Part shown: in pieces, positions 15,674 through 20,170 of the stretch
How positions within the stretch are numbered: position 1 is the stretch's first letter
How the letters are laid out: each line of letters starts with the position of its first letter
NCBI RefSeq assembly: GCF_964186625.1
Contig: NZ_OZ075108.1
Span: 1-64,000, forward strand
Origin: Asticcacaulis sp. MM231
GTDB lineage: Bacteria > Pseudomonadota > Alphaproteobacteria > Caulobacterales > Caulobacteraceae
Length of the DNA stretch: 64,000 bases
Direction: 5' to 3'
Translations under genes and position numbers: made by a program
Notes under the pieces: model-generated
Databases searched by the model: none
Seen by the model: only the letters and a program-made list of their open reading frames with translations
What the model was told of the DNA's origin: nothing

Positions 15674-16031
15674 CAAACTTCCTCACTCATAGATCCTGCA
15701 GCGGGGCCCGCGCGGGGCTGCCCGGCGTCTGTATAGCCAACTCTGATCAGGATGTCGCGTTAAACATACTTTAGCCAAGCGGTCACCACGCAGCACAGCG
15801 CCGGCATGAAATCCATGCCGTCAAACCGCGCTTTCAGCGCCACCAGATTGCTTCGGATTCGCCCCCCGTTGCCATCAGCTCAGAGTAAAGCGCCGTATTT
15901 GGGCAAAAGCAAGGCCAGGGTCGCGGCCCTGGCCCCTTAAGTCTAGGTGAAGAGTATCAGAGCGAAGGTTTCCGTTCATACAGCCGTGATTTGTCTTGGC
16001 CATTGCGCCAAAGCACCGTAATTCTGCCGCC
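15674..16031. promoter_or_regulatory. 358-bp divergent region between pbp1A and recQ
   Basis: I see no gene here. It holds a near-CtrA motif (TTAA-N7-TTAG) at 15760-15774 on the pbp1A side, a perfect 7-bp inverted repeat CGGCATG/CATGCCG at 15802-15820, and an 8-bp hairpin GGCCAGGG/CCCTGGCC at 15913-15934. None can be assigned a firm role. Confidence 0.45.
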
Positions 16032-17595
16032 ATGCCCTTATCCGCGACCCTTGACCGCCCCCACGCCGACCAGATGGCGCGCGCTGAAGATATCCTGCGT
16101 ACAACCTTCGGCTACGAGTTGTTTCGCGGCAAGCAGGCCGAGGTCATCGAACTCGATCCTGTCGGGCCGCGACACACTGGCCGTGCTGCCGACCGGCGGC
16201 GGCAAGAGCCTGTGTTACCAGATCCCCGCCATCCTGAGCGGTCGTATCGGCATCGTCATCTCGCCGCTCATCGCCCTGATGAGTGATCAGGTGATGGCGC
16301 TGAAGGCGCGTGGTGTCCGCGCCGAACGGCTCGATTCGTCGCAATCGATGGAGGCGCGCAACCAGCTCTGGGACGACGCCTTTTCCGGCAAGCTCGACCT
16401 GCTCTACCTGTCGCCGGAAGCGCTCGCGCCGTTCGTGCTTGATCGTCTGGTCAAGCTCAAACCCTCGATCATGGCCATCGACGAGGCCCACTGTATCAGC
16501 CAGTGGGGTCACGATTTCCGGCCGGAATATCGCGCGCTCGGTCAGCTTAAATCACTGTTGCCCGATGTGCCGACCCTGGCGCTCACCGCCACCGCCGATG
16601 CCCATACCCGCGCCGATATCAAGGCCGCCCTGCATATCGATGACGCCACCGAAATCGTCGCCGGTTTCGATCGCCCCAATCTTTCGCTGCGCTTTGTCCG
16701 CCGCAAGGGCGCGGTACTGAAATCGATCGTCGATATTCTGAAGCGTCAAAAAGGCGCCGCCGGCATCATCTATTGCGGCTCACGCGATGGCACGGAAAAA
16801 CTGGCGCAAAACCTGACCAAGGAAGGCTTTTCGGCCTCGGCCTACCATGCGGGCCTGTCCGCCCAGGTGCGCGAAGACCGGCTCAAAGCCTTCATGGCCG
16901 GCAAGTCGAAAATCATGGTCGCCACCATCGCCTTTGGCATGGGCATCAACAAGACTGATGTCCGCTTCGTCATCCACGCCGACCCGCCGTCCTCGACCGA
17001 GGCCTACTGGCAGGAGGTCGGCCGCGCCGGTCGTGACGGCCAGCCCGCCGCCGGTATCTGTTTCCATAATCCCGGCGATCTCGGCTGGGCGATCCGACGG
17101 TTGGGATTGCGTGAGAATGAGGGCGCGGCCGATCAATCGGTGCAAAAGCAAAAGGCGCGCGATTTCTTCCAGATGGTGCTCGGCACCGATTGCCGCAAAA
17201 ACGCGATCCGCCAGTATTTCGGCGACGCGGCGACCGAGCCCTGCCGCACCTGCGACAACTGCCTGAGCCGCGGCAAACTACGCGATGTCACCGAGCCCGC
17301 GCAGATGCTGATGTCGGCGCTCTATCGCCTGAACGGCCCGCGCGGCCGCAAGAAGCTGATCGAGCACGTCCTGGGCAAATCGACCGGCGCCGATTACACC
17401 ACGCGCATCAAGACCTTCGGCATCGCCCGCGATTATGACGCTGACCTGCTCACCCATGTGCTCGATCAGTGCGAGGCGGCGGGTATCATCGAGGAAGAGC
17501 TGTACGACAACAAGATGCCGATCGTCGGGCTGAAAAACTCCGACCTGCTGAAAGCCCTTTTCAAGGGTGACCTCCGGTTCGAGGTCAAGCTTTAA
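16032..17595 (+). pseudogene. recQ: ATP-dependent DNA helicase RecQ, interrupted by a +1 frameshift
   Basis: RecQ is a 3'-5' superfamily 2 helicase in recombination repair. The N-terminus is in one frame from ATG 16032 (residues to about QAEVIE). The rest ([25 protein letters not shown] box, RecQ zinc cysteines CRTCDNC, winged helix) is in the next frame. Removing one base near 16149-16155 joins them into a 520-aa protein with the expected spacing EVIE-x-x-L-x-GRD. Either the gene is inactive or the assembly has one extra base. An ATG in the second frame at 15991 gives a nonsense N-terminus. No HRDC domain is seen at the C-terminus. Confidence 0.88.
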
Positions 17596-17742
17596 GCGAT
17601 ACGTTTAAGAACACGGTTAAAGCCCCAATGCCGGCGCCAGTCGCAGCCCAGCCGCAACCGTCCCGACCGCCGATGGCGTCGAAGAGCCGCTGAACCTCCG
17701 CACCACGATCGACGTGCAGCCCTAAGGTCTGACGAAACTCCA

Positions 17743-17785
17743 AAGAAAAAGCCCCGCTGGATCAGCGGGGCTTTTTCTTTTTTAA
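17743..17785. terminator. Bidirectional intrinsic terminator
   Basis: A perfect 16-bp stem, AAGAAAAAGCCCCGCT against its complement with a GGATC loop, is followed by further T. Because the stem itself begins with A and ends with T runs, it can terminate in both directions. It closes the recQ transcript and separates it from the IS element. Confidence 0.9.
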
Positions 17786-17887
17786 AGGCCAAGGTGACTT
17801 CAGCCTTTACTGTAAATTCTATTTATGACGCTTTACCAGAATTAGCGATTATGGTTTTTGTAATAGGGTACAAACTATAATGGCTTC

Positions 17888-17898
17888 TGTAACGGTCC
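17888..17898 (+). repeat. IS1111 subterminal inverted repeat, transposase 3' side
   Basis: TGTAACGGTCC matches the reverse complement of 19262-19272 exactly over 11 bases. The flanking bases do not continue the match on either side. Confidence 0.85.
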
Positions 17899-18140
17899 AT
17901 ATGTCAACTCCCGATAAGGCTCAGTCCTCGTCGCCGGCTTCATGCTTCTGTACGTAGTCACCGCCAAGGCGCTACAAGATGGTTGTCCTAACGAACCAGG
18001 CCGACCAATCTAGGAACGCGCAGTCACCCAAAGAGCTGCTCCCGTTTCACCGGCCTGACCTGATCCGTGCGTCCCGGCGACGGGACCTTGCCATCAGGCG
18101 TGGTGGTCTATCCGCCTGAATCTTTTATCTTTAACGCCCC
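17899..18140 (-). ncRNA. Predicted bridge/seeker RNA region of the IS1111 element
   Basis: This non-coding segment lies between the transposase stop codon and the subterminal repeat, on the side where IS1111-group elements encode the guide RNA that pairs with target and donor DNA. It contains clear hairpins: GTCCCG-GCGA-CGGGAC at 18071-18086, and CAGGCG/CGCCTG at 18095-18118 with a 12-nt loop. I see no open reading frame worth calling. Exact RNA ends and guide loops cannot be fixed by eye. Confidence 0.55.
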
Positions 18141-19166
18141 CTATGCAGCCGCAAGGGCGGGATCAAAACATGTGCCGTCAACCAGCATCCGGTGCATTAC
18201 GACCGCCAGCTTGCGCGCTAACGCAACTTTGGCCTTCTTCATGCCCGATCGTTGTGCAACCCTTGCCGCCCAGCTTTTGAGCTGGGAGCCCTTCACTGGC
18301 CTCGTCAGGATAATGTTCGCCGCTTCGTATAGGGCGGTACGAACCTCCTGATCCCCGCATTTAGAGATCCGGCCGGTAATGTCTGTCTCTCCCGACTGAT
18401 ACTTGCGCTGCGTCAGGCCGAAGTGCGCGCCGACGGTTCGCGACGATCGGAAGCGCCCCGGATCATCGATCGCGGGCACAAAGGTAAGCGATATCGGGCC
18501 CCCTACGCCAGGAACCGTCATCAACAAGCCCGCACGTTCGTCCTTGCGTGCGCGCACAATCATGCGCGCGTCAAGGACGCGGAACTGTTCGAACAGAACC
18601 GCCCGCGCTTTGAGAAGGGCCTCGGTGACTTCTGCCAGGCCCGGGACATCTGCCGCAAGTTCGCGCACCCTCGGCTCGAAGGTTTTGCGGGTCGTCTCTC
18701 CCACCTTCAAGCCGTAGCCACGCAAAAGGCCACGCAGGCTCATCTCAAGATCATGCCACTTGCACTGAAGGACTTTGCGGGCAGCCAGAAGCGTGCGGTT
18801 ATCTTGAGCATCCACCGATTTGCAGTGAACCTGCCGGTACCAGCCCAGGCGCATCAATTGCGCGATTCCCCGGGCATCCTTGCGATCCGTCTTCACCGGC
18901 ATTGAGCGAAACGCATCACGGACATGCCGGGTCTCAAGAAGGGCAACATCCAGTCCGGCGGCTCTCAATCCCGCGTAAAGCCATTGAGATAAAGGACCGG
19001 CTTCAAGCCCAATCCGCTTCACCGCAAAGCCCAGAGCCGAAAACCATGCCAAGAGCGCTTCCGGCTCGCTAGCGACCTTGGCCTCCTTCACGACAACCCC
19101 GGCTTCGTCAACCACGCATAGATGCGAGGCTTCCAAAGAAACGTCGATACCCGTATAGTACAACAT
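18141..19166 (-). CDS. IS110/IS1111-family DEDD transposase (bridge recombinase)
   Basis: The 341-aa protein has the RuvC-like DEDD catalytic set: Asp8 in YTGIDVS, Glu55 in GLEAGP, and Asp94/Asp97 in KTDRKDA. The C-terminal Transposase_20 domain has the PGVGGPISLTF helix-hairpin-helix and the serine in RKYQSGE-TDITGRIS. The family recombines a circular or excised intermediate into a site chosen by an element-encoded RNA. The gene looks intact, so the element may be active. ATG 19166 begins MLYYTGIDVS. Confidence 0.95.
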   Translation of the reverse strand: MLYYTGIDVSLEASHLCVVDEAGVVVKEAKVASEPEALLAWFSALGFAVKRIGLEAGPLSQWLYAGLRAAGLDVALLETRHVRDAFRSMPVKTDRKDARGIAQLMRLGWYRQVHCKSVDAQDNRTLLAARKVLQCKWHDLEMSLRGLLRGYGLKVGETTRKTFEPRVRELAADVPGLAEVTEALLKARAVLFEQFRVLDARMIVRARKDERAGLLMTVPGVGGPISLTFVPAIDDPGRFRSSRTVGAHFGLTQRKYQSGETDITGRISKCGDQEVRTALYEAANIILTRPVKGSQLKSWAARVAQRSGMKKAKVALARKLAVVMHRMLVDGTCFDPALAAA

Positions 19167-19261
19167 GGTGGTCTCCTATGATGCTTGGCGCAGTCCAAAC
19201 ACTGACGCCGTAAAACCATCATACCGGGAGGCCACCACCCTTCAAAGGGCCTGCAGCGACC

Positions 19262-19272
19262 GGACCGTTACA
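19262..19272 (-). repeat. IS1111 subterminal inverted repeat, transposase 5' side
   Basis: GGACCGTTACA is the exact complement of the repeat at 17888-17898. It lies 96 bases upstream of the transposase start codon and only 47 bases before the next gene on the plus strand. Confidence 0.85.
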
Positions 19273-19318
19273 CCATCTAGAAAGCGGATTGATCTTCACT
19301 AAAACCACTGAGGGATAT

Positions 19319-20170
19319 ATGTTCAGACTAGTCTCTATCGGCGCCCTCAGTTTAGTGACTGCTTTTATCGCTTATGCTACCTATACTGGCTATGTATCTT
19401 ATAAAGCACCAAGGCGCTCAGTAAGTGATTATCATATCGTAGCCGAATGCTCACACATCCCGTTCAATTCCAATCGCTTTCAAGGCTCACCCCTTGAATG
19501 TGAGGCTCGCCTGCGGGAGGAAAAATTGCATGTGAAGCACCCCACCCTTATGGTTCGTGAGGGCGATAAGCTAACGATTTTTTATCAAGGCGCGCCTTCG
19601 GTCAGCCTTATTCCTGATTTAGGCGCCCGAGAAGGATGTGACAGCTATAACTTACGTAGCATAGTACCGACTTATGACCCGCTTAAACAACAGATGGACT
19701 ATCTTGCTGAAATTTCATGCCACACGGGTGAGTTCGAAGAACGTTTCATAGTCATGCCCAGCGGGGAGCGATGGAACGTGAATGGAGTTATGGCGTCGCC
19801 AAGCGGTCACCTCATAGGCGTCGGTCAAAACAACGTTGCGAACGACGGCTTTGGCGGCTTTACTATACAAGAATGGCCATCACGAAAAATAGTTGCGCGC
19901 TTTAAGCCAAGATGCCGTGTTGTAAGCTGGCAAGACGATGCAAATTTAACCGTAACGTGCTTACATGAGCTAAAGCCTTTAGGCGCAGACCTCGATTACT
20001 ACGTGGCCTTCGATGCCTCCGTCACACGTGACCAAAAACAACGCTGGCGTATGAGAACGTCTCGCTGGCTTAACCCAAGAGCACAAGATTATAATAAGGC
20101 CGGAGACGGAGAGTATGCTCCGACCTTATCCCTCCAGTGGCCACTGAATTTTAAACCGGTTACTAACTGA
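19319..20170 (+). CDS. Unrecognised membrane-anchored or secreted protein, AT-richer than neighbours
   Basis: I do not recognise this 283-aa protein. An N-terminal hydrophobic segment (about 5-25) could be a signal anchor. The rest is soluble, with paired Cys residues (AECSHIP...SPLECEARL, REGCDSY, ISCHTG, KPRCRVV...TVTCLHE) that suggest disulfides outside the cytoplasm. ATG 19319 has GAGGG six bases upstream and is preferred over an upstream TTG. Codons are rich in A/T at third positions compared with neighbours, as is the DNA left of the IS. This suggests acquired DNA into which the IS inserted. Confidence 0.7.
   Translation: MFRLVSIGALSLVTAFIAYATYTGYVSYKAPRRSVSDYHIVAECSHIPFNSNRFQGSPLECEARLREEKLHVKHPTLMVREGDKLTIFYQGAPSVSLIPDLGAREGCDSYNLRSIVPTYDPLKQQMDYLAEISCHTGEFEERFIVMPSGERWNVNGVMASPSGHLIGVGQNNVANDGFGGFTIQEWPSRKIVARFKPRCRVVSWQDDANLTVTCLHELKPLGADLDYYVAFDASVTRDQKQRWRMRTSRWLNPRAQDYNKAGDGEYAPTLSLQWPLNFKPVTN

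Follow-up and report, generated by a model that had tools for sequence, protein, structure and literature searches.

An IS1111-group element of Asticcacaulis sp. MM231 with a predicted bridge/seekRNA: target guides, donor bases and a putative shared AG core modelled from its relatives

The window, i.e., the whole 64,000-nucleotide stretch of contig NZ_OZ075108.1 of Asticcacaulis sp. MM231 that was analyzed, carries on its minus strand an insertion sequence of the IS1111 group (about 17884..19279). The gene recQ (15991-17595) lies on one side of it, while on the other side an ORF (19319-20170) is followed by a lactate/malate dehydrogenase gene (mdh). A single intact ORF, the transposase gene (18141..19166, minus strand, 341 aa), is placed between perfect subterminal inverted repeats (11/11 bp), the left repeat TGTAACGGTCC at 19262..19272 and the right repeat GGACCGTTACA at 17888..17898, both read on the minus strand. 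Non-coding sequence covers 95 nt upstream of the gene and 242 nt (17899-18140) downstream, from the stop codon to the repeat. Downstream of recQ, a perfect 18-bp inverted repeat with a T-run (17742-17780) is a likely terminator, beyond which the nearest genome (G002) differs. The ORF at 19319-20170 encodes 283 aa and is without a Pfam match; homologues at E 0.001 are present in 12 of 25 same-genus genomes, its own included, and are for the most part distant.

The transposase matches both DEDD_Tnp_IS110 (2.6e-17) and Transposase_20 (8.1e-19) above their cut-offs, and together with the perfect repeats this upholds the description of an intact IS1111-type element given in an earlier note on this DNA. 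The combination of both domains in 341 aa (about 330-350 in the IS1111 group), repeats of 11 bp (11-13 bp) and a longer downstream non-coding region is that of the IS1111 group; the features of the IS110 group (IS621 type), namely a guide RNA upstream of the gene and no long subterminal repeats, are not those of the window element. It is an ordinary element of this group and of a known kind. Its nearest solved structures are ISCro4 (9t56) and IS621 (8wt6), to which the serine region aligns well and the N-terminal domain weakly. Based on this alignment and on conservation, catalysis probably involves D8, E55, D94, D97 and S258, which are retained in 31/31, 33/35, 35/35, 34/35 and 34/36 of the relatives' aligned segments, respectively. 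In the IS1111 motif GL-P----S(t)G, the window protein reads GLTQRKYQSG, with SG kept and P replaced by Q. Compared to a sister copy (locus L009), 115 of 1023 bases differ and only 18 amino acids (dN 0.029, dS 0.488), and the transposase has therefore been under selection. The own genome contains 17 protein-level matches to the transposase, of which two are intact at 61% identity and one, at 60%, has a stop.

The earlier note had taken 17888..19272 as the limits of the element, but these positions mark the outer borders of its subterminal repeats. Two copies (L009 and L010), with a transposase 95% identical to that of the window, occupy two other sites in the same-genus genome G006. The sequence common to the window and both copies runs over 17882-19280 with nothing shared beyond, which defines a conserved block of 17885-19279. 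Across relatives, the conserved end blocks are TAGATGG (7 bp) on the left and GAA (3 bp) on the right. From the empty sites of relatives, a shared AG is assigned to 19278-19277 and to 17885-17884 (minus strand). The putative left core (19277..19278) is supported by the empty sites of four relatives and by AG in all 28 elements with a kept left end; the G of the putative right core (17884..17885) is the first base past the conserved block and is present after the right end in all 44 loci. The limits 17884..19279 thus include both AG cores and a T at 19279 that would derive from the target, and are consistent with the ends in relatives, their empty sites and the divergence of the flanks from L009 and L010. 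Since the RecQ proteins of the window genome and G006 are only 64% identical, as opposed to 95% for the transposase, the window copy probably arrived by horizontal transfer.

The 242-nt segment downstream of the gene has the length that the earlier note gave, and its structure is borne out. As a single RNA sequence it folds better than 200 of 200 dinucleotide-preserving shuffles (z -2.42). The comparison with relatives that the note had called for gives a conserved structure: the consensus fold of 22 aligned relatives contains 28 pairs, with compensatory changes at 15 of them, and 94.8% of the cells are paired, compared to 86.2% after shuffling (0/500 shuffles as high). Each of the five covariation measures is above its value in every one of the 500 shuffles, a result to be read with the caveat that related sequences may beat shuffles even without structure; when the pair partners are slid by 1-3 columns, pairing falls from 94.8% to 26-50%. 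In this fold the target loop is an internal loop and the donor loop a multiloop, a layout that agrees with a prediction for IS1111 elements in the part of PMC11208160 used here. Comparison thus shows a conserved two-loop fold, and we propose that the segment encodes a bridge/seekRNA whose predicted body spans 17931..18080 (minus strand), closed by the stem 18080-18074/17937-17931. A putative local hairpin (18086-18082/18075-18071) is well paired and shows no covariation. Rfam has no family at gathering score anywhere in the window. Elements of the IS1111 group have an RNA that binds the transposase and form a circle whose junction carries a promoter. Near the right repeat of the window element, TTGACA (17902..17907, minus strand) is a possible -35 box that would act across the circle junction; TTGAC is invariant in the 22 aligned relatives, and no -10 box fitting both circle models was found.

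To relate the loops to insertion sites, 90 loci were examined. Twenty-four were chosen by shared ends for the first alignment; once further loci had been added, 44 had the right-end motif, and 36 of these were used. The eight loci excluded from the guide tests were six repeats (L003, L091, L107, L132, L134, L139), L017 and L059. L017 has two right ends in tandem (CCCGTTACAGAAGGCCCGTTACAGAA), as though one element had landed next to, or within, the end of a second one. In L059, a shift of four bases is needed for the guide zone to agree with the flank, and the left core is AA (by eye), as in a displaced or degraded copy. Because the search motif prescribed A for LE+2 and GAA for the right end, these letters do not count as evidence; it left the G at RF+1 and the first left base unconstrained.

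The right target guide (guide1; 18050-18040, minus strand) was located by eye in the first alignment and then tested. In the first 23 elements it matches the own right flank at 7.26 of 9 positions, against 5.64 for swapped flanks (0/20,000 permutations), and with all 36 elements the values are 7.50 and 5.00 (sd 0.16; 0/20,000). Thirteen hold-out elements, unseen when the guide was located, give 7.54 versus 4.92 (0/50,000), and the 33 elements with distinct guide zones 7.52 versus 5.00. The sense flank, the left flank and the merely reversed flank, used as controls, remain at background. Among the 36 elements, L084 fails (4/9), and L020, L002, L027 and L031 fit weakly (6/9). The left target guide (TTCC plus the T before the core, 18012..18016, minus strand, same sense as the left flank) is shorter and weaker: its last four bases score 1.88 on the own flank versus 1.14 in 26 elements (0/5,000). 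The first left-end base varies (T, G or A); in 27 of 28 elements, a few of which share one RNA, it equals the RNA base that ends the left guide (14.9 expected; 0/100,000). This pre-core base also ranked first (z 4.5) in a blind column scan of 24,080 tests, where the guide columns were mixed with noise because the spacing between guide and core varies. The long right guide and the short left guide of loop 1 thus track the flanks of each relative. Within the RNA, guide1 lies 5' of guide2 (18016-18013), i.e., the top-strand guide comes before the bottom-strand guide. Judged from the sequence and by comparison with IS621, the AG that follows at 18010..18011 (minus strand) is a putative copy of the core, and the next two bases, AT at 18009-18008, are those of the left end after its core and possibly handshake bases. 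Target sites that form hairpins were rejected as a general rule: the DNA folds of 26 reconstructed sites have a mean z of -0.32, and three of them (L026, L142, L144) lie below -1.5.

Uninterrupted sites were aligned with the joined flanks of four relatives, L009 (L176, L178), L140 (L172, L190, L191), L141 (L187, L188, L189) and L144 (L173, L174). In all ten alignments the uninterrupted site is longer around the junction by a net two bases, a difference made up of several gaps in L190 and L191. At the core, seven of the sites have AG and three (L174, L176, L178) have AA, and the first base of TAGATGG equals the base in the empty sites of L140, L009 and L144. In the simplest reading, which we infer here, element and target share an AG core, complementary to the CT of IS621, and the guides are in reversed order. 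A target left-N-AG-right would then become left-N-AG-ATGG ... ACAGA-AG-right upon insertion. A clean empty site was not found for L010 and L143. In two loci of G002, an alignment across the L010 junction shows one base fewer instead of two more; it extends only about 10 nt beyond the junction, and these loci were not taken as empty sites. The left flank of L010 ends in a repeat present at at least nine further places in G006, and the sequence of its right flank is repeated in multiple copies in several same-genus genomes.

Loop 2 shows, by the same comparison, bases that are equal or complementary to the element ends and that would form the donor guides. CCATCT (17977..17982, minus strand) is the complement of the left end AGATGG, and ACAGAAGC (17944..17951, minus strand) has the same sense as the right end ACAGAAG plus the next flank base, with ACAGAAG present in 36/36 elements. 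The loop tracks the left end at LE+7 (24/28, 19.1 expected, 1/20,000 permutations as high) and weakly at LE+8 (15/28, 674/20,000 as high), with rows L013 and L031 mis-anchored in both statistics. On the other side, the base for RF+2 agrees with the flank in 21 of 36 elements (15.9 expected, 10/20,000 as high), all four switches to A coming from one element group. RF+3 is weak (8/36), and RF+4 gave no donor-guide signal in the 36 elements.

The window copy fits its own site on one side. The earlier note had expected the target to be readable from the flanks: the left guide does match the own left flank at 4 of 5 positions, a value reached by 0.65% of window AG sites (4,000 sampled from 6,387), while the right guide GTGAAACGGGA matches the right flank GCCATTATAG at the background level of 5/9, as do 26 of 35 foreign flanks and 61.5% of window AG sites. 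Summed over both guides, the match is 9/14 for the window (1.9% of AG sites), 9/14 for L009 (2.6%) and 10 for L010 (0.55%), and both sister copies fit the opposite way, with a good right and a poor left side. With a conserved structure and with loops matching the flanks and ends of relatives as well as the left flank of the window copy, the note's proposal of a guide RNA downstream of the transposase is supported, and half of its flank prediction is borne out. The window right guide fits the flank of L010 at 8/9, and none of the 36 guides matches the window flank above 6/9; the guide is thus probably still tuned to a CCCGNTTCA target. A site that fits the left guide only makes it probable that the window copy is an off-target insertion, or that its original right flank was lost or replaced. 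In the former case the original site would carry GCCATTATAG, in the latter NAG-CCCGTTTCA. No empty site was found for the window copy; genomes vary in their recQ-mdh interval, which is also different in G002, and the homologues of the ORF at 19319-20170 in L092 and L093 have other upstream sequence. A phage search was without match.

Several other explanations bear on the family as a whole. A structured 3' segment without guide function, such as a regulatory RNA or a transcription terminator, would be compatible with the single-sequence fold alone; the guide-flank permutation tests contradict it for the family and make it scarcely credible. The published boundaries of 7 and 3 bp might also hold, the extra bases of the empty sites then reflecting a 2-bp loss on insertion without any shared core. 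The conserved blocks TAGATGG and GAA have just these lengths, and PMC11187229, in the part used here, gives 7 and 3 bp without added bases for the tested IS1111 members. Yet the first base of TAGATGG changes along with that of the RNA and recurs in the empty sites of three relatives, and a shared AG requires no loss and agrees with the IS621 scheme, so that we regard these boundaries as unlikely for this clade.

For the window copy, the possibility that it is stranded, i.e., intact and yet unable to excise for want of the needed right flank, has a chance just short of even. The background match of the right guide fits this possibility, as do the 13 exact CCCGTTTCAC sites of the own genome, one of which is the guide itself and none of the other 12 of which comes after AG; for ISEc11, changes of target bases on either side are described to stop circle formation and transposition (PMC11187229, in part). 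Against it, the left guide fits, and the summed match equals that of L009, so that the window site may be good enough; nor was an empty site found that would show the original flank. A guide changed after insertion, with the old flank left behind, is a poor candidate: two of the eleven bases do differ between the window guide and the sister guide, but the latter also misfits the window flank (5/9), while the window guide matches the L010 flank at 8/9, and the best of the 36 guides reaches 6/9 on the window flank. No close relative was found in which the same site goes with a fitting guide.

In this study, we propose, with high confidence, a complete IS1111-group element that would move by RNA-guided recombination, with target guides in loop 1, end bases in loop 2, a shared AG core and a geometry mirroring IS621; the window copy would be horizontally acquired and, fitting its left guide only, probably off-target or deprived of its right flank. 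The transposase-RNA complex would join the circle (ACAGA-AG-ATGG) to the target (left-N-AG-right) at the shared AG, leaving AG at both element ends. In IS621, every guide includes the CT core, the left guide precedes the right one for the target and again for the donor, and in both loops the second guide is followed by two handshake bases (PMC11208160; PMC11208158; both in part). Read on the opposite strand, the window RNA has the same order and core, with handshake-like bases in the same places (AT after the target-loop AG, C after the donor-loop AG). Together with the donor tracking at LE+7, this leads us to infer that IS1111 is IS110/IS621 in mirror image, with a CT core, guides ordered left-right-left-right, handshake bases on the short second guide and the RNA in the matching end, a reading that we hold somewhat more probable than its opposite. 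Comparison supports the guide RNA strongly and the two extra target bases well, and the mirrored mechanism by inference. If true, the mirror reading would predict that, relative to the gene, cutting and exchange begin on the opposite strand. It would also account for the reversed guide order, which PMC11187229, in the part used here, took as a possible difference in mechanism, and IS110 and IS1111 would share one mechanism. The ends used for reprogramming IS1111-type recombinases would then differ by 2 bp from convention, at least in this clade.

Like IS621 and the IS110 group, as far as PMC11208160 and PMC11208158 describe them in the parts used, the window element has a target and a donor loop, long and short guides, a putative shared core dinucleotide and alignable catalytic residues. 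Unlike them, it has its RNA behind the gene, in the right end, and not ahead of the gene in the left end; the guide order is reversed, the core on the gene's strand is AG and not CT, and the subterminal repeats are long. The members ISEc11, ISKpn4, ISPa11 and ISPst6 in PMC11187229 (in part) share the subterminal repeats, the domains and size of the transposase and the long downstream non-coding region. The IS1111 members of that source also have the top-strand guide before the bottom-strand guide, a target that differs per element and natural retargeting between relatives. Different from these members, the first left base varies with the target, the empty sites of relatives are two bases longer, the window right guide misfits its own flank, and the RNA and mobility of the window element are predicted from sequence. 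In the same source, all of the 7 and 3 bp are part of the IS, whereas we propose a target-derived first base and a core. Target and donor guides around a core, with donor bases in the multi-loop, have already been predicted for the IS1111 elements ISPa11, ISAzs32 and ISCARN28 in PMC11208160, whose Extended Data Fig. 10c gives the guides and cores of three IS1111 elements (source used in part). An AG core or a mirror geometry for IS1111 was not found in the titles and abstracts searched, a scope outside which most subscription papers and preprints fall. The clade is useful since, among close relatives, one RNA scaffold occurs with 33 different guide zones, a natural retargeting experiment from which scaffold, guides, core and ends can be read by comparison. 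Part of the loci L042-L060 represents a second IS1111-like group with the left end ACGATGACGTAATTGCGG, the right end CCGCAATTAAAGGG and a recurrent flank.
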